Origin: Verrucomicrobiota bacterium
GTDB lineage: Bacteria; Verrucomicrobiota; Verrucomicrobiia; Chthoniobacterales; JAFAMB01
Assembly: GCA_019237325.1 (NCBI GenBank)
Contig: JAFAHI010000108.1
Span: 1 to 32,524, forward strand
Length of the DNA stretch: 32,524 nt
Direction of reading: 5' to 3'
Part shown: piece after piece, positions 2,180 through 31,499 of the stretch
Layout of the letters: each line of letters opens with the position of its first letter
Position numbering within the stretch: the stretch's first letter is position 1
Made by a program: the position numbers and the translations under genes
Notes under the pieces: generated by a model
Database searches by the model: none
What the model was told of the DNA's origin: nothing
What the model saw: only the letters and a program-made list of their open reading frames with translations

Positions 2180-3238
2180 ATGATCATTCACAGACCAATC
2201 GCACCTGTTATCCTAATCCGGCCTGCCCTACAAATGGGATTGGCTCTCGCCGTTGTCGTCAGCCTGGGAACAACGCTCATTGCAGCCGAAGAAACCTCGG
2301 CCGCGCCGTCTCCATCGGCAACCGCCGCAGGAAACACGGATACGAGCGGCCTCTCTTTACAAGGTAAAAAGGTCGGCATCACCGTGATCGGGACTGATCA
2401 TTATTGGGATCTGCGCGCTTATCAGGGGCAGATTGACGAAGTAAAACGTCTTGGGGGAACACCAATTGCCCTGGACGCCGGCCGAAATGATAGCCGCCAG
2501 GTCACTCAAATTCAGACCCTGATCACACAAAAACCTGATGTCATTATCGAGCAACTCGGAACACTGACCGTTTTAGAACCGTGGCTGCAAAAGATTCGGG
2601 CTGCCGGAATCCCTCTCTTCACCGTCGATACCGCGTCCCCTTCATCGATTAACGATACTACCTCGGATAATTTTTATATCGGCGAACAGCTCGCGGTACA
2701 ACTCGCTAACGATATCCACGGCGAGGGCAACATTCTTGTGTTCAACGGATTTTATGGAGTGCCGGTGTGCGCGATCCGATACGATGAACTCAAGGAAGTG
2801 CTCAAGTTCTATCCGAAGATCAAGATTGTAGAGCCGGAATTGCGAGACGTTATTCCAAATACGGTACAGAATGCTTACGCCCAAATAACCGAACTGCTTA
2901 ATAAATACCCGAAAGGCTCCATCGCCGCGATTTGGTCCGCTTGGGATGTCCCGCAAGTCGGCGCAACGGAAGCAGTCGATACAACCCATCGGAGCGAAAT
3001 CAAAACTTATGGAGTTGACGGCAGTCCCGACGTCGTCTCGTTAATAAAAGATCCTAACTCAGCGGCGGCTGCCGTTGTCGCACAACAGCCGTATTTGATC
3101 GGAAAAACCGCAGTTGATAATGCGGCGCGTTATTTAGCCGGTGATCATAATCTGCCGCCATATACTTTTGTGCCGGCGGTTTTAGTTACCAAACAAAACG
3201 CAGCCGAAGCGCAGACGTTTCTCGGTCAACGGCCATAG
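2180..3238 (+). CDS. Ribose-type ABC transporter periplasmic substrate-binding protein
   Basis: This 352-residue exported protein has an N-terminal hydrophobic segment (about residues 9-35, ending LIAAEETSAA) fitting a Sec signal peptide, then a Ser/Ala/Thr-rich linker to about residue 56. The mature part starts with KVGITVIGTDHYWDLRAYQG and continues with the PDVIIEQLGT and GIPLFTVDT strands of Peripla_BP_4/RbsB-type two-lobed binding proteins. Its role would be to capture a small ligand in the periplasm and pass it to the permeases encoded downstream. It starts 37 bases after the monooxygenase gene and ends 21 bases before the ATPase. RbsB-like proteins usually bind sugars, but the paired monooxygenases suggest a sulfur- or nitrogen-bearing ligand. 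An internal Met at residue 19 is a less likely start. Confidence 0.88.
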   Translation: MIIHRPIAPVILIRPALQMGLALAVVVSLGTTLIAAEETSAAPSPSATAAGNTDTSGLSLQGKKVGITVIGTDHYWDLRAYQGQIDEVKRLGGTPIALDAGRNDSRQVTQIQTLITQKPDVIIEQLGTLTVLEPWLQKIRAAGIPLFTVDTASPSSINDTTSDNFYIGEQLAVQLANDIHGEGNILVFNGFYGVPVCAIRYDELKEVLKFYPKIKIVEPELRDVIPNTVQNAYAQITELLNKYPKGSIAAIWSAWDVPQVGATEAVDTTHRSEIKTYGVDGSPDVVSLIKDPNSAAAAVVAQQPYLIGKTAVDNAARYLAGDHNLPPYTFVPAVLVTKQNAAEAQTFLGQRP

Positions 3239-3259
3239 CCGTTATTAATCAAATCAATT

Positions 3260-4849
3260 TTGCCCTTGGATACTGCAACCACAGTTTCAGGCTTAGCGGT
3301 TAGCGGACTGGTCAAAGAGTTCGACGGTATCCGCGCATTAAATGGCGTGAACCTGGAGGTCGCTCCCGGCACCGTACACGGTTTGGTGGGTCAGAACGGC
3401 GCCGGAAAATCGACGTTAATCAAAATCCTGGCGGGCATTTACCAACCCGATGCCGGCACGATTAGAATGAACGGTGCGATTCACTCTCGCTTGAATCCAC
3501 CTCTGGCCGAGAAATTAGGCATCCAATTTATACATCAAGAGCGTTTGCTGGTGCCGACACTCACGGTGGCAGAGTCACTTTACTTAGGGGCGGAGCCTCG
3601 TGTCGGATCTTGGATCAACCGGCGCTCGATGAACGAGCAGGCGGTCACCGCCTTGCAAGATTATTTCGGATTGGCCATATCGCCGAACAAATTGATCGGA
3701 GAATTAAGTGCCGCTCAACAGCAGACGATTCAGATTACGCGCGCTCTGTTGCGAAAAACATCGATCCTGGTCCTAGACGAACCGACGGCGACGTTGGTGA
3801 AACGAGAGGTCGACCTGCTTTTCCAGACTCTACAAAGACTGCGAGACGACGGGCTAACGGTTATCTATATTTCGCATTATCTGAACGAGATCGAGACGTT
3901 GTGCGACCGAGTTACGGTCCTTCGCAACGGCGTCGACGTCGCTACGGTTGAGCCTAGGCAGACCCCTATGTCTGCGATCGTTTCCCTGATGATCGATCGA
4001 AACATTGAGGACCTTTTCCAAAAACGTTCTGTGACCCTAGGTGAACCGGTTCTTGAGGTTAGGGAGTTGGCGCACCGAAACGCTTTTGCCGACGTCTCTT
4101 TCACCATCCGCCAAGGCGAGATTTTGGGTATCACCGGCTTGATTGGCTCCGGAGCCAAAGAAATGGTGCATTCACTATTTGGACTCGAACGCATCTCTAA
4201 GGGCCAGGTACTAATAGACCGCCGGGAGGTTCGTCTGTCGGCGCCTAGCCAAGCGGTCCGGAGCCGAATTGCTTATGTACCTGAACATCGACGCGAACAC
4301 GGGGTGGCGTTGAGTTTTAGCGTTCGCGAAAACATGACACTAGCCAGTCTCCGGGAGCATAGCAAGGCAGGCATCCTGATCGAGAGAAGCGAACGACGTA
4401 AGGTGGCTGAATTGATTGCTAAGTTGTCGCTATTGGCACCTAGCCAAGATGCTCCCGTGCGCCAACTTAGCGGTGGAAACCAGCAGAAGGTTGTTCTCGG
4501 TAAATGGCTGAGCCGGGAATCCGCTCTATACATTCTTGATGAACCGACCGTCGGTGTTGACATCGGAGCGAAGACCGAGATCTATCGCCTGATCGGTGAG
4601 TTAGCCGGCCAGGGTGCTGCTATCCTCGTTCTTTCCAGCGATCTATTGGAGTTGTTAGGTCTAGCCGATCGCATTCTGGTATTTTTCCGCGGCAAAGTCG
4701 TTCGTGAGCTTGATGCCTCCACCGCAGATCACGACGCGCTTTTGTCCGCGGTCACAGGAGTTAACGATCAGAAACCTGATAGGGCTCAAAAATCCACAGA
4801 TTACGCAGATTACACAGATTTAGTAGGCCAGAGCCGAAGAGTCGGATAG
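3260..4849 (+). CDS. Ribose-type ABC transporter ATP-binding protein (two nucleotide-binding domains)
   Basis: This is a fused double ATPase like RbsA/MglA (529 aa). Domain 1 has Walker A GQNGAGKST (residues 44-52), signature LSAAQ (149-153, a variant of LSGGQ) and Walker B ILVLDE (169-174). Domain 2 has a degenerate Walker A (GLIGSGAKE, about 293-301), signature LSGGNQQ (403-409) and Walker B YILDEPTVGVD (424-434). One good and one degenerate ATP site is normal for this family. No ATG is available at the N-terminus, so a TTG start at 3260 is assigned; no clear Shine-Dalgarno is present. The core appears to end near residue 502. Residues from about 511 (KSTDYADYTD) are encoded by a dispersed repeat, giving an acquired C-terminal tail. 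It energises the two permeases downstream. Confidence 0.9.
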   Translation: MPLDTATTVSGLAVSGLVKEFDGIRALNGVNLEVAPGTVHGLVGQNGAGKSTLIKILAGIYQPDAGTIRMNGAIHSRLNPPLAEKLGIQFIHQERLLVPTLTVAESLYLGAEPRVGSWINRRSMNEQAVTALQDYFGLAISPNKLIGELSAAQQQTIQITRALLRKTSILVLDEPTATLVKREVDLLFQTLQRLRDDGLTVIYISHYLNEIETLCDRVTVLRNGVDVATVEPRQTPMSAIVSLMIDRNIEDLFQKRSVTLGEPVLEVRELAHRNAFADVSFTIRQGEILGITGLIGSGAKEMVHSLFGLERISKGQVLIDRREVRLSAPSQAVRSRIAYVPEHRREHGVALSFSVRENMTLASLREHSKAGILIERSERRKVAELIAKLSLLAPSQDAPVRQLSGGNQQKVVLGKWLSRESALYILDEPTVGVDIGAKTEIYRLIGELAGQGAAILVLSSDLLELLGLADRILVFFRGKVVRELDASTADHDALLSAVTGVNDQKPDRAQKSTDYADYTDLVGQSRRVG

Positions 4850-4969
4850 TGAGCGACGTAGGTAAAGTTCCCGACCAAGTGCGACCTGATCCTCTTCTAA
4901 TCTGCAGTAATCCGCCTTCGCTACGCTATGGCGCGACTAGTTCTGAGGAATCTGCGGATCTTAAATTTG
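4787..4969 (+). repeat. Dispersed repeat with CAGATTACGCAGATT-type inverted ends
   Basis: The left end (4787-4822) carries CCACAGATTACGCAGATTAC followed by ACAGATTT. The right end (4897-4969) carries TCTGCAGTAATCC and GAGGAATCTGCGGATCTTAA, inverted versions of the same units. The element overlaps the 3' end of the ABC ATPase gene and fills the gap before the first permease. It also holds CTTCGCTACGCTATGGCGCG, a module partly shared with the spacer at 24390-24415. A related copy is at 13410-13550. Such units are short, non-coding and spread by an unknown route. Confidence 0.7.
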
Positions 4970-4986
4970 TTTGTGGGGAAAACCGT

Positions 4987-5991
4987 ATGTCAACTTCGAT
5001 ACTAACGGAACATCCGGTCCAGGAAAGCAGGCGAACGATCTGGAACTCACAGCTGCTCGTTCGATTAAGCTCGTTGCTCGCTTTTGTCGGGGTCATGATT
5101 TACTTCAGTTTGGCCGCTCCGTTATTTCTTAGTTACTCAAATGTATTGAACGTCGTGCAACAATCGGCGGTTCTAGGGGTGTTGGCGTTCGGAATGACTA
5201 CGGTTTTCATTTCTGGCGGCGCCCACGTCATTTCGGGTGGGATTGATCTATCGGCCGCCAGCAATATGGGCCTAAGTGCGGCGATCTATGCCAGCATCAT
5301 CCAAGCCGGTGGCACCGATTGGATCGCATTGCCGGTGACGTTATTGACCGGTCTGATTATCGGCGCAGTCAACGCTGGAGCCATTGTCGGGCTAAAAATC
5401 TTTCCGCTGTTAGCGACGTTGGCGACAATGAATATCTGTGCCGGTTTTGAATTAGTCCTCACCCAAAATACGGTGGTTCCCGCGGCGAGCCCGTTACTAA
5501 CCGCGGTAGCAGCGACCGGTTCATTCGCTGTGCCGAATATCGTCTATATCTTCTTTTGCTTAGCTTTTTTTTTGATAATCCTGATCGAGGCTACACCGTT
5601 CGGCCTCCGATTATATGCGGTTGGAGGGTTTCGGGAAGCAGCGATAGCCGCGGGTATCCGAGTGAATCGCGACGTGAGCGCCAGCTACTTGATCAGCGGC
5701 GTGTGTGGCTCAGTTGCAGCGATCCTCTCACTGTCACTGCTGAACGGAAGCTCGCCAGGCGCCGGTGAGATACTCTTATCTGTGGTATTGGTCGCGTTAC
5801 TAGGCGTCATCGTCTCCCGGCGAAGTGTACCCACGATTTCAGGAACGCTCATTAGCTCCTTGTTCATTGGATTCCTGGTGAACGGATTTCAACTGACCAA
5901 CGTGTCGAGCTACTGGGTAAACGGTGTCCAAGGCGGATTGATCCTTCTAGTGGTTGCCGGTAGCTCATTTTCTCGAAGAGCAGCTTACTAA
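4987..5991 (+). CDS. Ribose-type ABC transporter permease 1
   Basis: This 334-residue polytopic membrane protein belongs to the BPD_transp_2/RbsC family. It has about eight to ten hydrophobic segments and the family signature region GGIDLSAASNMGLSA. It forms the channel with the second permease and the double ATPase. The frame is open back to a GTG at 4849, but that 46-codon extension is mostly repeat sequence. The ATG at 4987, with GGGG eight bases upstream and the normal family N-terminus (short polar stretch, then a first membrane helix), is the better start. It is separated from the next gene by 15 bases. Confidence 0.9.
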   Translation: MSTSILTEHPVQESRRTIWNSQLLVRLSSLLAFVGVMIYFSLAAPLFLSYSNVLNVVQQSAVLGVLAFGMTTVFISGGAHVISGGIDLSAASNMGLSAAIYASIIQAGGTDWIALPVTLLTGLIIGAVNAGAIVGLKIFPLLATLATMNICAGFELVLTQNTVVPAASPLLTAVAATGSFAVPNIVYIFFCLAFFLIILIEATPFGLRLYAVGGFREAAIAAGIRVNRDVSASYLISGVCGSVAAILSLSLLNGSSPGAGEILLSVVLVALLGVIVSRRSVPTISGTLISSLFIGFLVNGFQLTNVSSYWVNGVQGGLILLVVAGSSFSRRAAY

Positions 5992-6006
5992 AACCGATCT
6001 TAGTCT

Positions 6007-6999
6007 ATGGCTTCTGCAATTACATCCGCACATGACCCCGCTCGACGCCGCGTCACTCGATGGATTCTGCGGAATAGCTTGCTGGCTGGCTTTGTCCTGG
6101 TGTTCGCGGCGTTAGGTGTCGCCGCTCCCGGCTTTCTGACCTGGAACAATCTGGTCAGCGTGATTTTGAACGAGTTTACATTGGCCGCCATTATCTCGCT
6201 GGGAATGACCTTGGTGATTTCGGCTGGAGGGATCGATTTGTCCGTCGGAAGCGCCGCGGACATTGCTAGTCTCGCGTTCATCGGTCTGGTGAGTGTACAC
6301 CAACCATTCAGGCTTGCAGTGATTGCTGGGCTATCCGGCGCGCTGTCGGTCGGAGCAGTGAACGCATCACTGATCGCCGGCATACGGATTTCTCCCCTCT
6401 TGGCAACTCTCAGCACTCTTTTTATCTCAACCAGCGTTCAACAGCTTGCTTCCAACGGCGGTCAACCCATCTATCTCATCTCAGGCACGCTTCCGGAGGC
6501 GTTTTATTTTCTCGGACGCGGCCAATTGTTCGGTGTTCCTATGCAGATCTACATCGTGACGGTCCTGGCCATCATTTTTTCTATTATTCTGCACAAGAGT
6601 AATTTCGGTCGTTACGTTTTCGCTTTAGGCGCCCAACCGGGTGTGGCTTGGTACTCGGGCATCCGAGTTTCGTCAACTTCCGCACTGGTCTACATCTTAT
6701 CCGCTCTCGTTTGCGGCGTCGCAGGAATTCTGCTTTCGGTCACCGTTAAAGCTTATGTTCCCCAATCTGGGAACGCCTATTTGCTTTGGACGATTGGTGC
6801 AGTTTTTATTGGAACAACGCTGCATTCGGAAGGCAGGCCGTCGGTAGCCGGCACTCTTTTGGGTGTCTTGTTGCTCAGTATCGTCCGGAATGGTCTTCTA
6901 TTGATCGGTTGGAATTTCTATTGGCAACAGGTGGCAACCGGTCTGCTGATTTTTGCGATTCTAGCTTTCAGCGGTAGCCGCTCCCGAGAAGCGAGTTAG
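6007..6999 (+). CDS. Ribose-type ABC transporter permease 2
   Basis: This is a second BPD_transp_2/RbsC-family permease of 330 residues, paralogous to the preceding one. It has the signature SAGGIDLSVGSAADIASL and many hydrophobic helices. Importers with two different RbsC-type permeases are known (for example AI-2/Lsr-like systems), so a heterodimeric channel is inferred. It is the last gene of the operon. A weak hairpin with a short T tract follows at 7068-7089. Confidence 0.9.
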   Translation: MASAITSAHDPARRRVTRWILRNSLLAGFVLVFAALGVAAPGFLTWNNLVSVILNEFTLAAIISLGMTLVISAGGIDLSVGSAADIASLAFIGLVSVHQPFRLAVIAGLSGALSVGAVNASLIAGIRISPLLATLSTLFISTSVQQLASNGGQPIYLISGTLPEAFYFLGRGQLFGVPMQIYIVTVLAIIFSIILHKSNFGRYVFALGAQPGVAWYSGIRVSSTSALVYILSALVCGVAGILLSVTVKAYVPQSGNAYLLWTIGAVFIGTTLHSEGRPSVAGTLLGVLLLSIVRNGLLLIGWNFYWQQVATGLLIFAILAFSGSRSREAS

Positions 7000-13639: not shown

Positions 13640-14731
13640 TCATGCGCTCGACTGAGACGATCCTTTTACCAGCACCATCTTGGCGAGTGGGATTAGCATC
13701 GGTTCGGGAGCGACCTTTAGACGCCCAATCATTCGTGCTTCCATCCGGTCAATGAACTCGGCTGCGCGACCCTCGTGATCATCCAGGCTAGCGGCAAGGG
13801 TCGGGCATACTGAAGCGCGAGAAAAGGCAGCCCACCGAGCGGCATACTTCCTGGCGTCACCGTGGCTCCGGAATTCTGTCCAGATGCGATCTTCACCATA
13901 AAAGACGTCAATTTCCTCCAGGGTGAGACCGGCAAAACTCCCGCTTCCAACAAATGGCGCCATGAAATCCTGCCGGCTTCGGCCAACGGTTGGAATCACC
14001 ATGCGGCGCGCTTCCTCCTTACTAATAAAGACCTCATCTACCAGATCGAGCACGGCTCCGTAGATAGCGGCGACAGCCGGCCTATATCCGAAGTCGCCAT
14101 GATGATCGAGCGCCATACTCAGCACAACTAGCCGGCCCCCAGGGCTTAGTTCGGCTGCACGATGAACCAGAAAACACCGCCAATCGTCCGCCGCCTGTTG
14201 ACAAAAAGCGGCTCGGGCAGCGGCATCCTGACTATAAGCTATCTGCACTTGGTCAGGGATGACGCCGGGGATCCGGCTTAGCCATTGTACGGCCCAAGAA
14301 CTCCAACCTAGGGTCACGCTGGAAGAAGGCAGAATTTGTTCGTAAAACGATCTTCCAACCGCACACGGGAATACGGTGGGATCGGCGCGTGAATAGCTGT
14401 CAGGATCCGAGGCCAGGATCTGAAAAAGGGCAGTGAAGTCGTTGCCCGGCAAATCGGTATGCACGACCGAAACCGCGCGATCAGGGCCGAGCCTATCCCG
14501 CAAAACCCTGATTGCAGCTGCCATTGGACCGAGTGAGTTACGCCCTTCCGAAGAGCCGTAATCCGCTATCACTACCGTTTCCGGCGGAAGCGGCAATTCA
14601 ACCTCTCTGGCAGCTTTTTCAAGCAACGGTACGGCCGGCGATGAACCAGTAGCCTGTACTCGCGAGCTCCGATTGTAAGCTCCGTGTCCCTCCATGGGTG
14701 CGGGTCCTTGTACTTGAGAGGACTCAGCCAT
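13640..14731 (-). CDS. SABATH-family SAM-dependent carboxyl methyltransferase
   Basis: This 363-residue enzyme matches the SABATH (Methyltransf_7) pattern known from plant salicylate/jasmonate/indole-acetate methyltransferases. SAM-binding elements are IADYGSSEGRNSL (D57, G59) and HTDLPGNDF (91-99). The family block SFY...SSWAVQWLSRIPG spans 128-156. The glutamine at 26 (SSRVQ) and tryptophan at 150 sit where plant enzymes contact the substrate carboxylate (known for SAMT; alignment here is by eye). It should make a methyl ester or N-methyl product. The start overlaps the end of the upstream transporter gene by 8 bases (ATGGCTGA), so the two are translationally coupled. A later Met at residue 13 is an alternative start. 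Confidence 0.85.
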   Translation of the reverse strand: MAESSQVQGPAPMEGHGAYNRSSRVQATGSSPAVPLLEKAAREVELPLPPETVVIADYGSSEGRNSLGPMAAAIRVLRDRLGPDRAVSVVHTDLPGNDFTALFQILASDPDSYSRADPTVFPCAVGRSFYEQILPSSSVTLGWSSWAVQWLSRIPGVIPDQVQIAYSQDAAARAAFCQQAADDWRCFLVHRAAELSPGGRLVVLSMALDHHGDFGYRPAVAAIYGAVLDLVDEVFISKEEARRMVIPTVGRSRQDFMAPFVGSGSFAGLTLEEIDVFYGEDRIWTEFRSHGDARKYAARWAAFSRASVCPTLAASLDDHEGRAAEFIDRMEARMIGRLKVAPEPMLIPLAKMVLVKGSSQSSA

Positions 14732-17843: not shown

Positions 17844-20800
17844 TTAGCCGCCCCTTTCCGACGGCTTTCCCCGGAGGTTAACTAACCTCTCAACCAGGCA
17901 GAAGCTGACCGGGATCAGGAAAATCGCGATAGCGCAGGCCGCGAACATTCCACCAATCACGGTCGTGCCCATGACTTGCCGGGCGATCGCGCCAGAGCCG
18001 GAAGCCATCCAAAGGGGCACGCATCCGAGAATGAAGGCAAAAGAGGTCATCAAAATCGGCCGGAGCCGCAATCGGGCCGCAGCGAGAGCCGCATCCACCA
18101 ACGGAGTGCCCCATTCATATTCGACCTTAGCAAACTCAACGATCAAAATGGCGTTCTTGGCGACCAGTCCGATGATCATAACCAGCCCGATTTGGACAAA
18201 AACGTTGTTCTCGATTTGCACGAGATAGGAAGGCAGAAACAACCCACTAATTAACCGCCGCAGATAGAGCATGCCAAATGCCCCGAAAACCGCGATTGGT
18301 GTGCTCAATAGTACGCTGAATGGGAGCGACCAACTTTCATACAACGCCGCTAGAATCAGAAACACAAACAAAAGCGAAAAACTAAAGATGGCTGCCGCTG
18401 GCACACCTTGTTGGGTTTGTTTCTCCTGGAACGACATGCCCAGATAATCATATCCCATCTCCGGGGGCATGGTCTGGGCAAAGACCTCTTCCAGCGCCTT
18501 CATCGCCTGATCGGAAGTGTAGCCAGAAGCGATCGCCGCATTGATTTGGGCGGAGCTATATAGATTGTAACGTAAGGTAAACTCAGGCCCAGTGCGTCGC
18601 TCGATTTGGGTGAGGGTGCTTAACGGCACAATGTCATTCTGGGAATTGCGAACATAGAACTCGCTCAGGTTCTCCGCGTTTGTCCGATAGTCGCCTTCCG
18701 CTTGGACGTAAACCTGCCACTGACGCCCAAACCGGTTGAAATAATTAATAAATGTTCCGCCCATGAAGGCTTGAACCGTTTGATACACGTCGCCGATCGC
18801 GATGCCTTGTTTCAGGGTTTTATCTATATCGACGTCGACGTAAGTCTGCGGGACGTTAGGTTGGAACGTTGTACTGACCTGGGCTAGCTCGGGTCGTTTC
18901 CGGGCCGCGCTAAGGAAAGTGTCGACATTCCGGGCGAGAAGCTCACCATCTCCACCGGAGCGATCTTCAAGCACGAAGCTAATATCGCCGGACGCACCGG
19001 CTCCCGGAATTGCCGGTGGCGAAAAAGCGAAAGCGACCGCTTCTGGCAGCTGCGATAGTTCCCTGTTAACTTCGGCTTTGATCCCTTGATAGGTTTCGTT
19101 TCGTTGTTCGCGGTCTTCCCATGGGGTCAAGGACACGAACAAAAACGCGCTATAGGTACTTTGGATGCCGCTCAGTAAGCTCGAGCCAATGGTAGTGGTG
19201 ACGTACCCAACTCCGGGTGTGCGCGACAGCAGCTCTTCGATCTTGCGGCAAACCTCGTCGGTGCGCTGCAACGACGCTGCCTTGGGAAGTTGCAAATTGA
19301 TGTAAAAATATCCCTGATCTTCATCCGGCAGGAAGCTAGTTGGGATCTTTCTACCAAACAGAAATGCCGCGCCCCCAAAAGCCACGATCAGGACGATGGC
19401 TAATCCGGTCCGCCGGATGAATAGAGCCGAAATCCGGACATATCCTTCGGTGGCGCGCCCAAACATCTGATTGAACCAGCGAAAGAAGGCTCCCAGTGGT
19501 CCTGTACCTTTCCGGCGCGGTCGAAGTAAGAGAGCACATAGCGCTGGACTCAGGGTCAAAGCGTTAAAAGCTGAGATTAACACCGAGATGGCAATGGTCA
19601 CGGCAAACTGCTGATAGAGTCTCCCCGTGATCCCCGGAATGAAAGCAGTCGGCACAAAGACCGATGCTAAGACCAACGCGACACCAACGACCGGGCCGGT
19701 AATCTCCTTCATCGCCTTGAGGGTGGCATCCTTAGCGTAGAGTCCACTGTCGATATGATGTTCCACCGCTTCGACTACCACTATGGCGTCGTCAACTACC
19801 AGGCCGATAGCCAAAACCAGGCCAAATAGCGAAAGTGTGTTAATTGAAAAACCTAGCAGCGGAAAAAACATAAAAGTGCCGATTAATGAAACCGGCACCG
19901 CTAATAACGGGATGAGGGTGGCTCGCCAGCTCTGCAGAAAGAGGTAGACGACCAGGATCACCAGAACGAGGGCTTCCACTAACGTTTTGATCATTTCTTC
20001 GATGCCGGCTGTAACCGGCTTCGTGGTATCCAGCGAAATCACATAATCTACGCCTCGAGGAAATCGTTGTCTCAGTTGGGCCATTAGTTTTTTGACGCCA
20101 TTCGCCGCAGCTAGCGCATTGGTACCAGGAAGTTGATAGACCGACACCACCGCGGCAGGCTTACCATTAAATCTACCTCTGGTGTTGTACGCTTGCGCAC
20201 CAAATTCCACCCGTCCGACATCTTTAAGTCGCACCGTTCCCCCGCCGGTCTCTTGTCGCAGAAGAATGTTTCCAAACTCTTCGGGACTGGTTAAGCGCCC
20301 TTGCGCCAGTGCGGTGTAGGTAAATTCTTGTCCATGAGGAACGGGTTCACTGCCAATCTGGCCGGCAGAATTAACCGTATTTTGCGCTTGGACCGCGTTG
20401 ACTATATCCGAAACGGTCATATTTAACCTGGCCAGTTGATCCGGTTTAAGCCACAAGCGCATCGCATATTGGCCGGCGCCCGAGATTTGGACATTGGAGA
20501 TGCCACGCACCCGGGTTAGCGCATCATTCAGATTGATATAGGCATAGTTCGACAGGAAGAGGGCATCCCGACTTCCATCCGGCGAATAGAGAGCGATTAC
20601 CAGGAGCGGCGCTGCTAAAGATTTCTGCACGGTCACTCCGAGATTGTTAACCGCGCTGGGCAACTGGGATGCGGCTTGCGTTTCTCGCATCTGAGCCAGG
20701 ATCTGATCCGTGTTTGGATCCGACGCAAGATCGAAGTCGACAGTCAACACCATTTGGCCGCTGTTAGCGTTGACCGAATACATATAGTTCATGTTGTCGA

Positions 20801-21014
20801 CGCCGCTCATCTGTTGCTCAATCGGCGTAGCCACCGCCTGCTCTATCGTGCGCGCATCCGCGCCGGTATAATTAGCCGTGATCACAGTTTGAGGGGTGAC
20901 GATGTCCGGGAACAGCGAAACCGGTAGAATCTTTGTCGAGATACCTCCGACGATGACCGTTAGAATTGAAATAACGATCGCGACGATCGGCCGGTTAATG
21001 AAAAACTTAGACAT
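17844..21014 (-). CDS. RND efflux pump inner-membrane protein, HAE1/AcrB type (second of two)
   Basis: This 1056-residue protein has the full AcrB-type architecture: helix at the N-terminus (SKFFINRPIVAIVISILTV), two large periplasmic loops and twelve helices in total. Proton-relay residues are kept: the Asp pair in GLVVDDAIVVVEAVE (equivalent to AcrB D407/D408) and the Lys in GLVAKNAILIVEFAK (AcrB K940). It should work as a homotrimer or, with its neighbour, a heterotrimer pumping hydrophobic compounds via a periplasmic adaptor and outer-membrane channel. The ATG at 21014 gives the standard family start; the longer frame to 21140 is spacer repeat. It is closely related to the pump encoded next to it. 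Confidence 0.93.
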   Translation of the reverse strand: MSKFFINRPIVAIVISILTVIVGGISTKILPVSLFPDIVTPQTVITANYTGADARTIEQAVATPIEQQMSGVDNMNYMYSVNANSGQMVLTVDFDLASDPNTDQILAQMRETQAASQLPSAVNNLGVTVQKSLAAPLLVIALYSPDGSRDALFLSNYAYINLNDALTRVRGISNVQISGAGQYAMRLWLKPDQLARLNMTVSDIVNAVQAQNTVNSAGQIGSEPVPHGQEFTYTALAQGRLTSPEEFGNILLRQETGGGTVRLKDVGRVEFGAQAYNTRGRFNGKPAAVVSVYQLPGTNALAAANGVKKLMAQLRQRFPRGVDYVISLDTTKPVTAGIEEMIKTLVEALVLVILVVYLFLQSWRATLIPLLAVPVSLIGTFMFFPLLGFSINTLSLFGLVLAIGLVVDDAIVVVEAVEHHIDSGLYAKDATLKAMKEITGPVVGVALVLASVFVPTAFIPGITGRLYQQFAVTIAISVLISAFNALTLSPALCALLLRPRRKGTGPLGAFFRWFNQMFGRATEGYVRISALFIRRTGLAIVLIVAFGGAAFLFGRKIPTSFLPDEDQGYFYINLQLPKAASLQRTDEVCRKIEELLSRTPGVGYVTTTIGSSLLSGIQSTYSAFLFVSLTPWEDREQRNETYQGIKAEVNRELSQLPEAVAFAFSPPAIPGAGASGDISFVLEDRSGGDGELLARNVDTFLSAARKRPELAQVSTTFQPNVPQTYVDVDIDKTLKQGIAIGDVYQTVQAFMGGTFINYFNRFGRQWQVYVQAEGDYRTNAENLSEFYVRNSQNDIVPLSTLTQIERRTGPEFTLRYNLYSSAQINAAIASGYTSDQAMKALEEVFAQTMPPEMGYDYLGMSFQEKQTQQGVPAAAIFSFSLLFVFLILAALYESWSLPFSVLLSTPIAVFGAFGMLYLRRLISGLFLPSYLVQIENNVFVQIGLVMIIGLVAKNAILIVEFAKVEYEWGTPLVDAALAAARLRLRPILMTSFAFILGCVPLWMASGSGAIARQVMGTTVIGGMFAACAIAIFLIPVSFCLVERLVNLRGKPSERGG

Positions 21015-21021
21015 CAAGGGA

Positions 21022-21070
21022 TGTTTCGGGCTACGGGTTGCTGGTTGCGAGTTACGCGTTACGAGTTGGG
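21022..21070 (-). repeat. Degenerate GAGTTACGCGTTACGAG spacer repeat between two pump genes
   Basis: The plus strand carries GGTTGCTGGTTGCGAGTTAC followed by GCGTTACGAGTTGG, that is, repeated GGTTGC, GAGTTAC and GTTACGAG units. It lies in the 100-base gap between the two RND genes, just upstream of the second pump's start. Similar units from memory occur in intergenic DNA of related bacteria; no other copy was found in this window. Confidence 0.45.
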
Positions 21071-21114
21071 CGTCAGGGTGTGCACTTGGATGTGACCTAT
21101 AGGGCTCATGCGAC

Positions 21115-24100
21115 TTATGGGTGGTTGAGTGGGTACTCACCGCGGTTCTTACGTCCTACGAAGGCAGCTAATGTTTCGACCATACAAAAGCCGGCTGGAA
21201 TTAAGAAAATGGCTAGTAGGCTGGCTGCGAGCATTCCTCCGATGACCCCGGTACCCAATACTTGCCGGGCGACTGCGCCTGACCCTGAAGCCAGGGCGAG
21301 AGGAATACAGCCAACGATAAAGGCGAATGACGTCATCACGATCGGACGCAGACGCAAACGCGCACCGGCCAAAGCCGCATCTACCAGCGTAGCGCCGCGC
21401 GCATACTCAACCTTGGCAAATTCGACAATCAAAATGGCGTTCTTAGCCACCAGACCGATAATCATGACCAGACCGATCTGTGCATAAACGTTGTTCTCGA
21501 TCTGCACGAAAATCGGCGGCAGAAATGCACCGGTTACAACCCGGCGCAGGTACAGCGCGCCTAGGGAACCGAAAACGGCGATCGGCGTACTCAGCAGTAC
21601 ACTCACCGGAAGCCACCAACTCTCATAGAGAGCTGCTAGTATCAGAAATACGAACAACAAAGAAAAAGCAAAGACAACCGCCGGCGGCGCCGCTTGCTGA
21701 GCCTTTTTCTCTTGGAACGACATGCCCAAATAGTCATATCCCATCTCCGCCGGCATCGTCTGAGCAAAGACCCTTTCTAATGCGTTCATGACCTCGGCCG
21801 AGCTGTAACCCGGCGCCGGGATCGCTTGAATTTGAGCCGAGCGAAACAAATTGTAGCGCATGGTAAATTCAGGACCGAATTCTCTGCGAACCCGCACTAC
21901 TGAACAAAGAGGTACCGCGTCGTTGTTTCGGTTTCTGACATAGAATTGGCCAACCTGATCGGCTCTGGTCCGAGATTCGCCGTCGGCCTGCACGTACACT
22001 TGCCACTGACGCCCGAAGCGGTTGAAGTAGTTGACGAAAGAGCCACCCAGAAAACTTTGCAGGGTGGTGTAAATATCGGTCAGCGCGACCCCCTGGCTAA
22101 GGGCTTTGGCCCGATCGACCTCAAAATAAACCTGCGGCACGCTGGGAAGCAGGGTGGTAATTACTCGCCCGAGCTCAGGCTGCTTACGGGCAGCATTCAA
22201 GAAAACATCAACATTGTGGGCTAGAAACTCTGCGCCTCTATCGATGCGATTCTCAAGCACAAAGGATACACCTCCAGCCACACCGGCCCCCGGAATGGCC
22301 GGAGGAGAAAATCCGAAGACGGTCCCTTCCGGAAATCCGAGGAGCTTCAGATTAAGCAGTCCTTTAAGAGCTTGATATTGTTCAGTTAGCTTTTTCCGTT
22401 CTCCCCAAGAATTCAGAGTTACAAAAAAGAAACCGCTATAGGTAGTTTGGACATTACTTAACAAACTGAACCCGGCGATCGCGGTGGTGTAGCGTACGCC
22501 TGGAGTTTGAGCGAGCAATGCTTCAATCTTGCGGCAGGCCTCATTGGTACGTTGCAGGGAGGCGGCTTGGGGAAGTTGGAGATTGATGTAGAAATAGCCT
22601 TGATCCTCGTCCGGCAGAAAGCTGGTCGGCAGCTGTTGGCCGAAAAAGATTGCCACCGCACCAAACCCCACTAGTAAGGTCAGGGCTAGACCGGTTCGAC
22701 GGATCAGCAGCCCCGAGACGCGTACATATCCGTCCGTAACCCGGCTGAAGAGCCGGTTAAACCAACCAAAGAATATTTCGAGCAGCCCGGTTCGCGCGTG
22801 CCGGGGTCGCAATAGCAGCGCACACAGGGCTGGGCTAAGTGTCAGGGCGTTGAATGCGGAAAAGAGAACCGAGACCGCGATAGTAACTGCGAACTGTTGA
22901 TACAGCCGGCCGGTGATACCCGGGATGAAAGCCGTTGGTACAAAAACCGAGCCGAGCACAAGGGCTACCCCAATCACCGGGGCCGTGATTTCTTTCATCG
23001 CTGCGCGGGTAGCTTCTTTCGGAGCCAACCCTGCCTGGATGTATCGCTCCACCGCTTCGACTACTACGATAGCATCATCGACTACCAACCCAATCGCGAG
23101 CACCAATCCAAACAGGGAAAGCGTGTTGATCGAAAACCCGAGCAGAGGGAAGAAAATAAAAGTGCCAATCAATGATACCGGGACCGCCAGCAACGGAATG
23201 AGCGTGGCCCTCCAACTCTGCAGAAAGAGATAAACGACGATCACCACTAACCCGAGTGCCTCTAACAAGGTCTTGACCATCTCCTCAATGCCTGCGGTTA
23301 CCGGCAGGGTCGTATCGAGTGCGATCACATAGTCCATTCCGCGCGGAAATCGCGTCTTCAACTCGGCCATCCGTTGCTTAACGCCTTTCGCAGCCGTCAA
23401 TCCATTGGTGCCCGGAAGTTGATAGATCGCGAGAACGGCGCTGGGCTGACCATTCAATCGGGCGTAGGTATTGTAGACTTGTGAGCCCAGCTCGACACTG
23501 GCCACATCTCGAATACGGACAACCCCACCGTTCGTCGATTGACGCACGATGATATTGCCGAATTGCTCCGGAGTCGTCAGCAGTCCACGCGATACGGCCA
23601 TATAAGTGAATTCCTGACCGTTGGGCACTGGTTCGCCGCCGGCGAAACCGACCGGATTCACCGCGTTCTGCTGTTGAACCGCGTTAGTAATGTCCGAAAC
23701 CGTTATGTTCAATCGAGCTAACTGTTCGGGCTTCAGCCAAATGCGGATCGCGTACTGACCTGACCCAAACACCTGCACGTTCGAGATACCCGGGACTCGA
23801 GTTAGCTGATCGATCAGATTGATGTACCCGTAATTCGCCAAAAACTGTGAGCTATAGCGGCCATCTGGGGAACGGAGCGCGATTAACATGAGCGGCGCGG
23901 CAAACGATTTCTGGACACTAATTCCTTGCGACACCGCTTCTGGCGGCAGCTGAGCGCTGGCCTGCGATTGCCGCATCTGCGTCAAAACCTGGTCGGTTTT
24001 CGGGTCGCTGTTTTCATCGAAATTCACCCTCAACTTCATCTGGCCGGTATTCGAGTTGAGGGAATACATGTAGTTCAGCTTATCGACTCCGCTGACCTGC

Positions 24101-24300
24101 TGCTCGATCGGCGTTGCCAGGGATTGCTCGACCGTGACAGCATCTGAACCCGGGAAGGTGGCCGAAACTACTATTTCAGGAGGAGTTATGTTCGGATAGA
24201 GCGAGACCGGCAAAAATAACAGGCAGGTCAGACCAATTACTATTGTCAAAATCGAAAGGACAATGGCAAGAATCGGCCGATGAATGAAAAATCCGGACAT
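21115..24300 (-). CDS. RND efflux pump inner-membrane protein, HAE1/AcrB type (first of two)
   Basis: This 1061-residue protein is a full-length AcrB-type pump with the same plan as the next gene downstream. It has the GLVVDDAIVVVEAVE relay pair, the GLVAKNAILIVEFAK lysine and long identical stretches with its neighbour, such as RATLIPLLAVPVSLIGTF. Differences concentrate in the periplasmic loops, which set substrate preference. It follows the adaptor gene by 219 bases, which contain a repeat. Tandem paralogues are reminiscent of MdtBC-type heterotrimers, but both copies keep all proton-relay residues, so independent pumps sharing an adaptor are equally possible. Confidence 0.93.
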   Translation of the reverse strand: MSGFFIHRPILAIVLSILTIVIGLTCLLFLPVSLYPNITPPEIVVSATFPGSDAVTVEQSLATPIEQQVSGVDKLNYMYSLNSNTGQMKLRVNFDENSDPKTDQVLTQMRQSQASAQLPPEAVSQGISVQKSFAAPLMLIALRSPDGRYSSQFLANYGYINLIDQLTRVPGISNVQVFGSGQYAIRIWLKPEQLARLNITVSDITNAVQQQNAVNPVGFAGGEPVPNGQEFTYMAVSRGLLTTPEQFGNIIVRQSTNGGVVRIRDVASVELGSQVYNTYARLNGQPSAVLAIYQLPGTNGLTAAKGVKQRMAELKTRFPRGMDYVIALDTTLPVTAGIEEMVKTLLEALGLVVIVVYLFLQSWRATLIPLLAVPVSLIGTFIFFPLLGFSINTLSLFGLVLAIGLVVDDAIVVVEAVERYIQAGLAPKEATRAAMKEITAPVIGVALVLGSVFVPTAFIPGITGRLYQQFAVTIAVSVLFSAFNALTLSPALCALLLRPRHARTGLLEIFFGWFNRLFSRVTDGYVRVSGLLIRRTGLALTLLVGFGAVAIFFGQQLPTSFLPDEDQGYFYINLQLPQAASLQRTNEACRKIEALLAQTPGVRYTTAIAGFSLLSNVQTTYSGFFFVTLNSWGERKKLTEQYQALKGLLNLKLLGFPEGTVFGFSPPAIPGAGVAGGVSFVLENRIDRGAEFLAHNVDVFLNAARKQPELGRVITTLLPSVPQVYFEVDRAKALSQGVALTDIYTTLQSFLGGSFVNYFNRFGRQWQVYVQADGESRTRADQVGQFYVRNRNNDAVPLCSVVRVRREFGPEFTMRYNLFRSAQIQAIPAPGYSSAEVMNALERVFAQTMPAEMGYDYLGMSFQEKKAQQAAPPAVVFAFSLLFVFLILAALYESWWLPVSVLLSTPIAVFGSLGALYLRRVVTGAFLPPIFVQIENNVYAQIGLVMIIGLVAKNAILIVEFAKVEYARGATLVDAALAGARLRLRPIVMTSFAFIVGCIPLALASGSGAVARQVLGTGVIGGMLAASLLAIFLIPAGFCMVETLAAFVGRKNRGEYPLNHP

Positions 24301-25736: not shown

Positions 25737-26723
25737 TTAGTCGCTGCAAAGATAGTATTGGTCCTCGACTTTGATAACATCCGCCCTGGTATTGGTCGCG
25801 TAGCTGAGAGAAGCGCCCTCAATCGGCGCGAACTGTGGTTCGTTGTTATATTCAACCTTCACCTTTGACCCAGCTTCTGTTCGCTTCACCACCGCTGAGA
25901 CCGGAACTTGCGCGAGCAAAATGGCGTCTTCGCATTCCGGTGTACCCGGAACAGAAGCCAACACCTCGGCGGGGAAATTGCTGAAATCCGCGGGAAGCTT
26001 ACTAACCCCGCTCCAAGGACCGTCAAGTGAGTTAGCACTCAACCAGAGCTTGTCGACTAAGAGGTAGTATTTTGACGCAGCAGAATCGAAGAAGAGGTCC
26101 CAATTGGCATTGAGGACAAACTTCAGGTCAATCCCTTTAATGGGTCCTAGCACCGAATCGCCCTGAACGGTCAATAGGACCGCCGGTTCCGTACTTATCA
26201 TAATCGTCGGCGGGTCTGTCTTCACCGGCACTGTTTTAGCCTTTTCCTGGCTAGCCTGGACGCTGGTAATCAGCCGGTCGAGCGAGACAGTAAGAGGCTT
26301 GCCGGGGAACGTGGATTTAAGCAGCTCTTCCATCTTGGTCTCTTCGTCGTCGGACAGAGCGGGAAAACGAACGGCGGTTATTTCGATGTCGTCAATTAGA
26401 ACCGTGCGCGTTTCCACATTCGCCGTGGTTCGGCCTTTCAGTTCCTCAACCCCGACAGCAGGTTTGCCATCCTTCGGTGTAAGAACAAAGGCAAGCCGCG
26501 CTCGCAGTTCGCGGAAATCCTTCCACTCGTCGACCTGTGGTTGATAATAGACAAAACGAATCCCGTTGCGGGTAACTTCACGCGGCCATCCTGGATCAAG
26601 CTGTTTTGCGCCTGGCGACTCAGGCGAAGCTGGCTTCTCCGCCGCGAAAACGCCGACCGCGGCATGCATCCAGGAAACCCCGAGGAAAAGATGAAATCGA
26701 AAGAAGCGGGAGAACGGCTTCAT
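25737..26723 (-). CDS. Exported hypothetical protein, apparently C-terminally truncated
   Basis: This 328-residue protein has a signal peptide-like N-terminus (about residues 1-28, ending VFAAEKP). The mature part is rich in beta strands: PREVTRNGIRFVYYQPQVDEW, IDDIEITAVRFPAL, DLFFDSAASKYYLLVDKLWLSANSLDGPW and VIKVEDQYYLCSD. A 'YYLL...W...GPW' unit followed by a second YYL unit suggests repeated small beta modules. The protein stops at the second YYL unit, just where the GPW part of that unit would be expected, so the C-terminus may be lost. From memory similar proteins continue further with W-F and G-P-W modules (not checked). The stop is 24 bases before the adaptor gene, giving an operon-like arrangement. 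Function is unknown. Confidence 0.6.
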   Translation of the reverse strand: MKPFSRFFRFHLFLGVSWMHAAVGVFAAEKPASPESPGAKQLDPGWPREVTRNGIRFVYYQPQVDEWKDFRELRARLAFVLTPKDGKPAVGVEELKGRTTANVETRTVLIDDIEITAVRFPALSDDEETKMEELLKSTFPGKPLTVSLDRLITSVQASQEKAKTVPVKTDPPTIMISTEPAVLLTVQGDSVLGPIKGIDLKFVLNANWDLFFDSAASKYYLLVDKLWLSANSLDGPWSGVSKLPADFSNFPAEVLASVPGTPECEDAILLAQVPVSAVVKRTEAGSKVKVEYNNEPQFAPIEGASLSYATNTRADVIKVEDQYYLCSD

Positions 26724-27168: not shown

Positions 27169-28950
27169 CTACGGCGCAGACCCTTCTTCGTGATCGTAGG
27201 TCACAACGCTATTTGCCGCTTTGATGGTGTGCAGGTAATGTTGGTAAGGTGCAGTAGCGTCGAATGAATAGGTTTGGGAGCTGGCTTGCCCCTGATTCCC
27301 CGTGATTTGGAATGAGCTGTTAAAGAGCTGGGTGTCGACAGCATTCACTACGTTCGACAAATGGCTGGTGTAAGGCGCAACTTGCAGCGGAAGACCAATC
27401 TCCGGCAGCCAATCTCCTTGCTGATCGACAACGTATCCCCGATCGACGGTCGTCTTCTGCTGACCTGAGCCATCGGATTTAAAAGTCTGAACAATGTCGG
27501 CCGTGAGCGGATACGAAAGGTCCTTCACGCTAAGCAAGGTCGACGACTTCTTTCCGGGATCCGTATTCAGATCTTGATAAGTGCTCTTAGTGGTGAGCTT
27601 GGTGACTTGGAGAATGTCTTGCTCGTAATGGGTGGCAGAAACCACAAATCGCTGGTCGTTCGAAAAGCTAGCGTCTTGCTCAACCGTGGTGACCAGCTTC
27701 TCGGTCGGCGAAACCACGATGTACCCCTGCACCGTCAGATGTCGCGTGGATCGAGTCCCAATAGTGCCGTTCGGGTAACCCTTAATCTGATGAATGTTCT
27801 CCTGAATATCTAGCGCCGGCTGGTAATCGCCGGTCACGGTAACGCCGCCGGTGAGCGAACTAGAGTTATAATTCAGGTAAACGAGCAGGTTAGCTGAGGC
27901 CAGGAAGTAGTTGTTCGCGTTGTACACATTCAGCGAAATCGTATGCGAGTTGCCGTCGCTCAAGAGAACTGCAAACGGAGAAAGATCGACCCGGTAGGGC
28001 ACGAAATTCAACGCTTGGACACCAGGGATTGGCGCCCAAAGATAGGGATCGATGCCTCCAGTATAAATCCAGGGGTAGACGGGAGCAAAACCCGCAACCT
28101 GACCATCGATGTTTACTTCGACTTCACGAAACGAAGTTCCGCCATACTGGTTGAGCTGTTGAGCCAGATCATCTGAAACATTGGAGTACCAGAACTCATC
28201 CTGATATTGGCTCTGGGCAAAAACGTCTAAATAGACACGCGCGACCGTGGTGGGGATACTCTCGACTTGTCGGGGAACTGAAAACGTGAGCGACAAGGTA
28301 CTCATATTGGATTGAAGGGTGTAGCTGCCATCCGCGGTGCCGGGGAGAGGATAGACCAGATCGGCGACGACCGGCGCCTGTTCACCGCTTCCTTGAGTGT
28401 AAGGATAGAAAAGCAGGTACGCGCTGGCGTAAATCACTCCGGTGTACGTCCCGTTTATCAGATTCCCGATATTGATTTCGCCCGGCTGCGCGCTCATGAG
28501 CAGATTGCTGTACTCCGTCAGATCGCGCTCAATGTGCCAGGAAGGCCCCAGTTTGGGAGTGGGCTCGGACGTCGTTCCGATATAAACGACGGTGTTCCCG
28601 ATTGTCATCCGCGCGGTCCGATCATATTGAACACCGGACGTCACATTAATATCGCAGACTAGAATCACTTTTGCCCACGGTCGCGGCGAGTTGGGCGCTG
28701 TTGGCGGAGTAAACTCGGGAGGCGTATACGCGAAGTTTTGGGGATTGAAATTGTTGAATTCCAGGTTGTCGAACAGCTGCACTTTGGTCGGTCCACCAAA
28801 TTTTGCCGCCGGACGGCTGACTGGTGGATCCGCAGTGATGGTATTACCGGACCCAACCGGGCTTCCCGCGTAACTCGGGTTCCAGAAGCCGAACGATGCT
28901 AAAACCGAGAGACCGAAGAACCACGTCCTGAAGAAGCTTCGACAAATCAT
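27169..28950 (-). CDS. Exported PNGase A-family protein (peptide N-glycosidase A)
   Basis: This 593-residue protein has a signal peptide (MICRSFFRTWFFGLSVLASFGF...YAGS). It matches the PNGase A domain: PWAKVILVCDINVTSGVQYDRTA in outline, GPSWHIERDLTEYSNLL, GEINIGNLINGTYTGVIYAS, VYLDVFAQSQYQDEFWYSN and PVYPWIYTGGIDPYLWAPIPG. Plant PNGase A releases N-glycans from glycopeptides, including those with core alpha-1,3-fucose. A secreted bacterial member could trim plant or fungal glycoproteins. The ATG at 28950 is chosen because GAGAGGG lies 9 bases upstream; longer frames reach 29007 and 29130. The last third (about residues 380-593) is a separate beta-rich domain with no family I recognise. Confidence 0.87.
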   Translation of the reverse strand: MICRSFFRTWFFGLSVLASFGFWNPSYAGSPVGSGNTITADPPVSRPAAKFGGPTKVQLFDNLEFNNFNPQNFAYTPPEFTPPTAPNSPRPWAKVILVCDINVTSGVQYDRTARMTIGNTVVYIGTTSEPTPKLGPSWHIERDLTEYSNLLMSAQPGEINIGNLINGTYTGVIYASAYLLFYPYTQGSGEQAPVVADLVYPLPGTADGSYTLQSNMSTLSLTFSVPRQVESIPTTVARVYLDVFAQSQYQDEFWYSNVSDDLAQQLNQYGGTSFREVEVNIDGQVAGFAPVYPWIYTGGIDPYLWAPIPGVQALNFVPYRVDLSPFAVLLSDGNSHTISLNVYNANNYFLASANLLVYLNYNSSSLTGGVTVTGDYQPALDIQENIHQIKGYPNGTIGTRSTRHLTVQGYIVVSPTEKLVTTVEQDASFSNDQRFVVSATHYEQDILQVTKLTTKSTYQDLNTDPGKKSSTLLSVKDLSYPLTADIVQTFKSDGSGQQKTTVDRGYVVDQQGDWLPEIGLPLQVAPYTSHLSNVVNAVDTQLFNSSFQITGNQGQASSQTYSFDATAPYQHYLHTIKAANSVVTYDHEEGSAP

Positions 28951-28959
28951 AGCGAGCAT

Positions 28960-28966
28960 CCCTCTC
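28960..28966 (-). promoter_or_regulatory. Shine-Dalgarno deciding the PNGase A start
   Basis: GAGAGGG on the minus strand lies 9 bases before the ATG at 28950. Upstream ATGs at 28959 and 29007 have a Shine-Dalgarno that is too close or absent. Confidence 0.6.
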
Positions 28967-29076: not shown

Positions 29077-29159
29077 TAGGGATGAGCTTTGTTCGTCCGA
29101 GGGAACTTGAGAAGCAGGAGCTGCGAACAAAGGAGGGTGAGCGGGAGCTCATCCCCACG
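29077..29159. repeat. Short GGGATGAGCTC-type element between divergent genes
   Basis: The left end reads AGGGATGAGCTTTGTTCGTCC and the right end GTGAGCGGGAGCTCATCCCC, which together form an inverted pair over the GGGATGAGCT core. It separates the divergent PNGase A and CMD genes. It is related to the ends of the 24312-24490 element. Confidence 0.6.
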
Positions 29160-29172
29160 GAAAACTGAACCC

Positions 29173-29763
29173 ATGAATGAGCCATTTCTTCCTCCGATCG
29201 AAAAGCCCAAGGGATTGATTATGAACTTGGTATACGCCATGTCGCGCTGGCAATTCGGCAAGGTATTAACGCCGGTGAAGGTGTATGCGGCACGTATGCC
29301 CAACGCTTTCGGGACTTTCTTTGGAAAGGTCTCGGCGCTCGACAAGAAGCTACTGCTGTCACGCGAAACCGTCTTCCTTATCCGGGAGCAGGTAGCCCGA
29401 ATCAATGTATGTCTTTTCTGCACCGACATCGGGCGGGCATTCGCGATCAAAGAATCGATGAATGAAGCCAAATTCGATGCGCTCGACGAGTACAAGACAA
29501 GCTCGCTTTTCAGCGATGCCGAACGTGCTGCGTTGGACTATGCGACCGAGTTAACCCGGGATAAACAGATGAGTCAGGGAACGTTCGATCGCCTGGCCAG
29601 CTACTATTCCGAGCGCGAGATCTGCGAGATCGCTTGGCTAGTCGCGAGCGAACACCTTTACAACATGGCCAATATCGGGCTGAACATTCATTCCGATATG
29701 CTTTGCGATATCAGTAGAAAGTCGCGAACGGCAACGGCCGAACAGGCCGTCGCCGCCAAGTGA
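29173..29763 (+). CDS. AhpD/carboxymuconolactone decarboxylase (CMD) family protein
   Basis: This 196-residue protein has the helical CMD/AhpD-like pattern: LSRETVFLIREQVARINVCLFCTDIGRAFA, then FSDAERAALDYATELTRDKQM and REICEIAWLVASEHLYNMANIGLNI. The CxxC pair C80/C83 of the peroxidase-type active site is present, but the histidine usually four residues after the second cysteine is glycine (G87). Some activity other than classical AhpD peroxidase is therefore possible. The ATG at 29173 gives the family-like start; the open frame to 29089 is repeat sequence. It is divergent from the PNGase A gene. Confidence 0.8.
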   Translation: MNEPFLPPIEKPKGLIMNLVYAMSRWQFGKVLTPVKVYAARMPNAFGTFFGKVSALDKKLLLSRETVFLIREQVARINVCLFCTDIGRAFAIKESMNEAKFDALDEYKTSSLFSDAERAALDYATELTRDKQMSQGTFDRLASYYSEREICEIAWLVASEHLYNMANIGLNIHSDMLCDISRKSRTATAEQAVAAK

Positions 29764-30090: not shown

Positions 30091-30387
30091 TTATCCACCG
30101 GCCATCGCGCCGACGATCAAAAGTGGTTCCTGCCCGTCGACGACCTCTTCGGGCAAGGCGGTATCCGGTGGTTCCAGAGAAAGATCCTCGCGACAAGCAT
30201 AGAACCGAACAAAAGGACGCCGTTGCAGGGTGAAACGGTCCCGAATCGCGCCGCGCAACACCGGGTAACGGGCTTCGAGCGCGTCAAGAACCGATTCGAG
30301 GGTAGCTCGCCCGTCGATGGTGAGCTCCACTTCGTCGTGCACATTAGCTAATATTCGTAAATGATAAGGAAGAGTCACTCTGATCAT
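30091..30387 (-). CDS. MoaD/ThiS-family ubiquitin-like protein
   Basis: This 98-residue protein has the beta-grasp pattern of MoaD/Thi[37 protein letters not shown] and a C-terminal [10 protein letters not shown]. The Gly-Gly end is the activated thiocarboxylate site in sulfur-carrier proteins. The start overlaps the stop of the upstream BNR-repeat gene by four bases (ATGA), so the two are translationally coupled. From memory this BNR/MoaD-like pairing recurs in many bacteria with no known job. No MoeB/ThiF-type activating enzyme is in the window. Confidence 0.85.
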
Positions 30388-31499
30388 TGCAGTGTCTGGA
30401 CCTCGACCGACAACACGGCAGGCAAGTCGCGCACGATCGGACTCCAAAAATCTCCATTCTCGGCAGACATGTAAACTTGTCCGCCAGTGGTTCCGAAATA
30501 CACCCCGCACGGATCCAGCGCGTCAACCGCCATTGAGTCGCGCAACACGTTCACGTAACAATCTTTCTGGGGCAATCCTTTCGTTAATGGTTCCCAATCG
30601 TTTCCACCCGACCGGCTGCGATAAACCCGCAATTTGCCATCCGGCGGAAAATGCTCGGAATCGCTTTTGATCGGCACCACGTAGACGGTTTGGGGTTCAT
30701 GGGCGTGTACCTGTATCGGAAACCCAAAGTCGGACGGCAGATCGCCACTTACCTCGGACCAGGAATCGCCCGCATTATCGGACCGCATAACATCCCAGTG
30801 CTTCTGCATAAACAGGGTGTTCGGGTCCGACGGGTGCAAGGCAATTCGATGAACGCAGTGTCCAACTTCAGCCGCGGGGTCCGGTAACTCCCATGGGGAT
30901 TTCAGTCCTTGGTTGACCGGTTTCCAGGTCTTGCCGCTATCGTCGGTTCGAAAGACTCCCGCAGCCGAGATCGCGACGAACAGGCGGTCCTGATTTTTCG
31001 GATCGAGAACAATGGTGTGAACGCACATACCGCCGGCGCCAGGTTGCCAAAGATCCCCTTTCACTCCACGCAAACCGGGCATCTCTTGCCACGTGCGGCC
31101 GCCGTCCACTGTCTTGAAAAGCGCTGCATCCTCCGCCCCGGCATAGACCGTGTCCGGGTCCGTCAGCGAAGGTTCCAAATGCCAGACCCGTTTGAATTCC
31201 CAAGGATGTTGGGTGCCATCGTACCACTTGTGCGTACCGGGCACGCCTTCGTACTTAAATTCGTTGCCTACCGCTTCCCAAGTTTGGCCGCCATCATCGG
31301 ATCGCTGCAGCATCTGGCCAAACCAACCTGTATTCTGCGAAGCGTACAGACGATTCGGATTAACCGGTGACCCATTCACATGGTAGATCTCCCAGCCAGC
31401 AAAGTGCGGTCCGCTGACTTCCCATCGATTTCGCTGCGCGTCCGCAGTCAGAATAAAAGCTCCCTTCCTGGTACCAACCAACACTCGTACTTGGCTCAT
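30384..31499 (-). CDS. BNR/Asp-box repeat beta-propeller protein (sialidase/VPS10-like fold)
   Basis: This 371-residue protein carries five Asp-box-like units: [40 protein letters not shown] and [10 protein letters not shown]. These mark blades of a sialidase-type propeller. The start [17 protein letters not shown] lacks a signal peptide, so it is probably cytoplasmic. Similar proteins are often labelled exo-alpha-sialidase, but catalytic sialidase residues (an Arg triad and Tyr) are not evident. The coupled MoaD/ThiS-like gene suggests a shared, still undefined function. Confidence 0.85.

Follow-up and report, generated by a model that had tools for sequence, protein, structure and literature searches.

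Does a PNGase A-like protein of the Verrucomicrobiota act as an N-glycanase, and is it then the glycans, or the proteins beneath them, that the cell would use? A gene in the 32,524-nt stretch of DNA analyzed here (‘the window’) raises this question. Acidic PNGases serve as tools in the analysis of N-glycans; the branch described below is divergent from the two outside members with which we compared it. In one account, PNGase F and PNGase A are treated as two superfamilies, and putative prokaryotic PNGase A enzymes are drawn largely from Actinobacteria and Proteobacteria (PMC12381499). A constrained copy in one genus of Verrucomicrobiota extends this range; the titles and abstract openings of literature on PNGase, Verrucomicrobia and N-glycan name no PNGase A from the phylum.

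Bacterial PNGase A enzymes, the PNGase H+ family, are already known. In one study (PMC7348039), 13 bacterial candidates were assayed: at pH 2, removal of glycans from horseradish peroxidase was clear for six (Tr, Xt, Ac, Ka, Ft and Dj), and the activity of the other seven was negligible. The pH optimum of PNGase Dj is 2 (PMC7348039), and that of PNGase H+ from Terriglobus roseus is given as 2.6 in PMC4231336. A review (PMC10154615) describes PNGase Rc, titled an H+ variant, as working at neutral pH and on proteins in their native state. PMC12753239 is a further citation in the PNGase literature. With these reports, and with the deposited structure 9vla, the statement in the preliminary description of this locus that few bacterial members have been characterized is roughly right. 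Below, we set out why, on balance and with moderate confidence, we favor an exported, probably acid-active enzyme of the PNGase A/PNGase H+ type, one that likely unwraps glycoproteins for acid peptidases.

The gene and its product

The preliminary description had the limits of the gene right; it is encoded on the minus strand, with its ATG at 28950 and its stop codon ending at 27169 (Table 1). The frame is intact in three species, that of the window and two sisters, whose orthologues are 89.2% and 85.8% identical to the window protein. The named records of the sister species are Verrucomicrobiota MAGs, and their copies (L002 and L003) do not differ, where they overlap, from stretches L004 and L005 of genomes G002 and G003. 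In the three pairwise comparisons, 155 of 230, 208 of 306, and 240 of 337 differences fall at third codon positions. Whole-gene dN/dS is low (0.118, 0.108 and 0.074 by NG86; 0.151, 0.146 and 0.108 by YN00), which, together with the intact frame in three species, rules out a chance frame or a pseudogene. Constraint is strongest in the catalytic part (NG86: 0.045, 0.059 and 0.039). We take the protein to be a real, conserved and probably secreted enzyme of its family.

Farther upstream, the frame stays open as far as a TTG at 29130, giving 653 residues in all; the ATG at residue 42 of this longer frame is not kept in both sisters, L002 having Ser. A second ATG at 28959, three codons upstream of 28950, is kept in both, and could be the start instead. 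We prefer 28950 because of its spacing from the Shine-Dalgarno-like sequence. Export, as earlier proposed, is probable from a Sec-like signal peptide recognized by eye (Arg residues, a hydrophobic run and S-Y-A); in the alignment, the hydrophobic run and S-Y-A recur in both sister copies. The computed pI of the protein after residue 28 is 4.64, a value that is compatible with a very low pH optimum and no proof of one.

Table 1. Features of the PNGase A-family gene and its product, in window coordinates
Feature	Position	Strand	Basis or remark
PNGase A-family gene	27169..28950	minus	ATG start, stop included; 593 aa, open frame
Shine-Dalgarno-like GAGAGGG	28960..28966	minus	9 bases before ATG at 28950; read from sequence
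Probable Sec signal peptide, residues 1-28, ending S-Y-A	28867..28950	minus	read by eye
PNGaseA catalytic region, residues 75-371	27838..28728	minus	hmmscan; translated-genome search gives 27835-28728
Asp110 of QYDR motif, candidate catalytic acid	28621..28623	minus	role proposed; identical in five sequences
Glu252 of DEFWY motif, candidate catalytic or binding acid	28195..28197	minus	role proposed; identical in five sequences
C-terminal region, residues 373-593 (~220)	27169..27834	minus	no Pfam family above cut-off; dN/dS 0.11-0.17 (NG86)
Weak PNGase_A_C-like stretch, residues 399-462	27565..27756	minus	PF25156 below cut-off

Family membership and candidate active site

The protein belongs to the PNGaseA family by its profile (PF12222; hmmscan E = 1.2e-56), with 192.3 bits against a curated cut-off of 25.3 and a match spanning profile positions 26-331 of 336. 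Up to E = 10, the sole match among solved structures is ‘PNGase Bb’ (PDB 9vla), a name not met in the PNGase literature searched. A phmmer search with the single sequence matches it at E = 1.5e-35, and a four-sequence profile at E = 3e-57; identity is 28.5% over 432 aligned residues. The near-complete profile match and the phmmer match bear out the family assignment made earlier. NCBIfam lists nothing for the protein. An AlphaFold2 model built from three close sequences was unusable (mean pLDDT 34.2).

To the two members compared from outside the Verrucomicrobiota, PNGase Bb and a plasmid-borne Streptomyces relative, identity is ~28-32%. An alignment of the window protein with L002, L003, the PNGase Bb fragment and the Streptomyces relative has 66 residues that all five share, a few of them in the poorly aligned C-terminal region. 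Among these are Q108, D110, R111, E129, E252, W254, R275, E276, D282, W305, D322 and D332; with PNGase Bb, the protein has in common the motifs QYDR, EP, D-E-x-W, RE, W and D-L-x-P-F. We propose D110 and E252 as candidate active-site acids. At three positions where the Streptomyces relative and PNGase Bb both carry cysteine, the Verrucomicrobiota copies, all three alike, have T, S and Q.

PNGase H+ (T. roseus) and tested relatives such as PNGase Dj (Dyella japonica) are described as homologues of PNGase A in bacteria, and release N-glycans from horseradish peroxidase in acid; unlike them, the present copy comes from Verrucomicrobiota and is a predicted enzyme. Almond PNGase A, the plant enzyme, bears the same Pfam domain family name, and is likened here by that name; it is itself a glycoprotein (PMC7348039). 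The PNGase F superfamily, which includes zebrafish Ngly2, catalyzes the same reaction, and its Asp and Glu may be analogous to those proposed above. PNGase F has a similar Asp-Arg motif, to which D110-R111 may correspond. No PNGase F family is among the five Pfam families listed for the protein up to E = 10. The PNGase F domains N-glycanase_N and N-glycanase_C (PF09112, PF09113) gave no match in the bacterium's own genome; the control genomes gave none either, making this a weak negative.

The C-terminal region

The preliminary description spoke of an unrecognized C-terminal beta domain of about 200 residues; unrecognized it is by Pfam standards (Table 1), and the beta fold is putative. The PNGase_A_C profile (PF25156) reaches E = 0.0024 and 18.3 bits in the window protein against a cut-off of 27.9, and 16.8 bits in L003; the matches listed for L002 and for the Streptomyces relative do not include it. 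DUF6359 overlaps the same stretch at E = 0.00098, also below its cut-off. The phmmer alignment with PNGase Bb extends to residue 493 of 593, and that of the profile search stops at profile position 459, so that neither reaches the last ~100 residues. Used as a query by itself, the region finds nothing in the PDB up to E = 10, and, in a profile comparison, the Streptomyces relative (E = 0.3) and the PNGase Bb fragment (E = 0.2) score no better than an unrelated neighboring protein used as a control (E = 0.15). The region is constrained, with dN/dS of 0.168, 0.122 and 0.107 (NG86). Whether it is an extra domain is doubtful because overall lengths are near those of the relatives: 593 residues in the window, 553 in Streptomyces and 561 in the PNGase Bb chain. 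From these lengths, and from the weak, below-cut-off resemblance to PNGase_A_C, it is not clearly an addition to the family architecture.

Distribution and origin

PF12222 occurs in three of the 57 genomes of a search among relatives: in three of the four members of the genus, the bacterium's own (G000) included, and in none of the 53 others. Among 387 genomes drawn from the phylum, it occurs in the bacterium's own only, and, among 14 control genomes, only in Sulfolobus acidocaldarius. The bacterium's own genome is 78% complete, that of the non-carrier G001 89%, and that of G002 95% (with 9% contamination). Because three of four genus members carry the family against none of 53 other relatives and one of 387 phylum genomes, horizontal gain is suggested, and the gene was probably acquired by an ancestor of the carrier species. 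The most economical account is that the genus gained the gene; alternatively, many other lineages may have lost it. The base composition of the gene (GC 0.531, GC3 0.617) is like that of its neighbors, and so, if transferred, it came either not recently or from a donor of similar composition.

A scan of genome contigs for a donor returned only the two sister species, and no tRNA lies within the window. Phage or plasmid cargo was considered and set aside: there was no match in 50,697 phage records, and 72,556 plasmid records gave a single distant one, to Streptomyces (35% identity, with 47% of the query aligned). Among viral contigs, two short patterns gave 70 matches, none of them confirmed.

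Protein or glycan as the prize

The favored enzyme would act on eukaryotic N-glycoproteins or glycopeptides, hydrolyzing the link from Asn to the first GlcNAc so that the glycan is set free and the Asn becomes Asp; by analogy with characterized relatives, it would probably tolerate core alpha-1,3-fucose. The source of the substrate may be plant or fungal. The unwrapped glycoproteins would then likely be open to digestion by the cell's own acid peptidases, of the kumamolisin/sedolisin type, and the released glycan would be used incompletely or lost to others. Action in acid is probable and not certain, since PNGase Rc works at neutral pH.

Domains of the pro-kumamolisin family (PF09286) accompany the gene: there are 5 in the bacterium's own genome, 4 in G002 and 13 in G003, versus 1 in the non-carrier G001 and 0-1 in each of nine others (0-1, that is, across all ten non-carriers). 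Of 14 control genomes, only S. acidocaldarius matched. The surplus looks like a lineage-specific expansion. The carriers also have the largest genomes of the 13, at 5.9-6.7 Mb compared with 2.7-5.2 Mb in the ten non-carriers. All five of the bacterium's own pro-kumamolisin frames give the prodomain by Pfam, but only two also have a subtilase-family match, and only two contain the Ser motif, by a pattern that we take to be the right one; none passes an NCBIfam cut-off. A single copy was searched against the PDB, and it hits kumamolisin at E = 2.9e-29; the open frame of one copy is just 245 residues long.

The preliminary description had proposed feeding on plant or fungal glycoproteins, and a search for the downstream glycosidases as a check. 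Our searches covered GH92, GH20, GH29 and GH38, with GH2, GH3, GH18, GH85 and GH130 outside their scope, and most of the expected genes were not found. GH92 was absent from all 13 genomes, the four of the genus included, and GH20 from the same four, being found in 2 of the 13 overall. GH29 was marginal in the bacterium's own genome (29.1 bits vs 25.2) and in G002, and was not found in G001 or G003. One GH38 mannosidase was found in the bacterium's own genome, and the family in all four genus members and 10 of the 13 genomes. Asparaginase_2 was not found in the bacterium's own genome, at 78% completeness. Since the expected glycosidases are mostly not found and pro-kumamolisin genes are numerous, it is more plausible that the cell uses the protein part, and the feeding proposal is half borne out.

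Both the narrow distribution and the pro-kumamolisin company are drawn from one clade, and, the three carriers being one genus, the link to the peptidases may reflect a single event. We entertain only tentatively the bolder version of the favored reading, that of a genus-restricted, horizontally gained lineage, lacking its relatives' cysteines and largely unmatched at its C-terminus, that partners an expanded set of secreted acid peptidases in a protein-directed, acid glycoprotein-digestion module of the bacterium. If the link is true, it would provide a testable role for a bacterial PNGase A in glycoprotein digestion.

Feeding on the glycan itself, with plant or fungal N-glycans released and, after trimming by further enzymes, serving as a carbon source, seems to us unlikely. 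There is precedent, a Bacteroides PNGase belonging to just such an N-glycan feeding pathway (PMC9522356), and some circumstantial evidence: the single GH38 and marginal GH29-like genes, and one neighbor that could favor it, the Sortilin-Vps10 and BNR-repeat protein at 30384-31499 (minus strand, two genes and ~1.4 kb upstream). This protein weakly matches the F510_1955 glycosylhydrolase model (74.2 bits, below the cut-off of 175), and its last 71 residues recur in L003/L036, where that contig ends. An ABC transporter at 2180-6999, ~20 kb from the PNGase gene, is of a type that we take to be sugar-linked. Against all this stand the lack of GH92 and GH20 in the genus, the occurrence of GH29 in five of nine genomes outside it, and the presence of GH38 in eight of the nine family members searched, so that GH38 does not track the PNGase.

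Somewhat less likely still is the suggestion that the fold has been kept by a protein that is not a PNGase, and that binds glycoproteins or cleaves another amide or glycosidic bond. Negligible activity in seven of 13 assayed homologues (PMC7348039) means that family membership is no guarantee of activity, and the replaced cysteines, and a C-terminal region without a supported match to those of the relatives, point the same way. The near-complete family match, the motifs common to a chain deposited as a PNGase, and a constraint that is strongest where catalysis would take place all argue the other way.

That the targets are glycoproteins of the cell itself or of its neighbors, in turnover or competition rather than as food, is very improbable: the family is matched also in S. 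acidocaldarius, an archaeon with N-glycosylated surface proteins, but the 20 neighboring frames scanned with Pfam include no N-glycosylation family.

Gene neighborhood

No peptidase family occurs among those 20 frames. Downstream on the same strand, a 328-aa frame (25737-26723, minus) without a Pfam or NCBIfam match separates the PNGase gene from an HlyD/RND efflux set; tblastn at 1e-8 finds no counterpart of this frame in either sister stretch; the efflux set is present in both sisters. Divergently upstream (29173-29763, plus) is a peroxidase-related gene, also in both sisters, whose NCBIfam matches are below the cut-offs; a search of 13 genomes matched it in four, all of them members of this genus. 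In the non-carrier G001, a peroxidase-like gene 69.6% identical to it lies beside what appear by eye to be LacI-like regulator and ABC-transporter-like frames, and the gene context there thus differs from that of the window.

Two further observations concern the rest of the window. The efflux set (17844-24300, minus) comprises two tandem RND pump genes, ~68% mutually identical, after one HlyD-type gene; both RND genes also occur in the two sister stretches, the second cut by the stretch end. At 13640-14731 (minus), there is a protein of the Methyltransf_7 family of SAM-dependent carboxyl methyltransferases (E = 2e-35), a family typical of plants.
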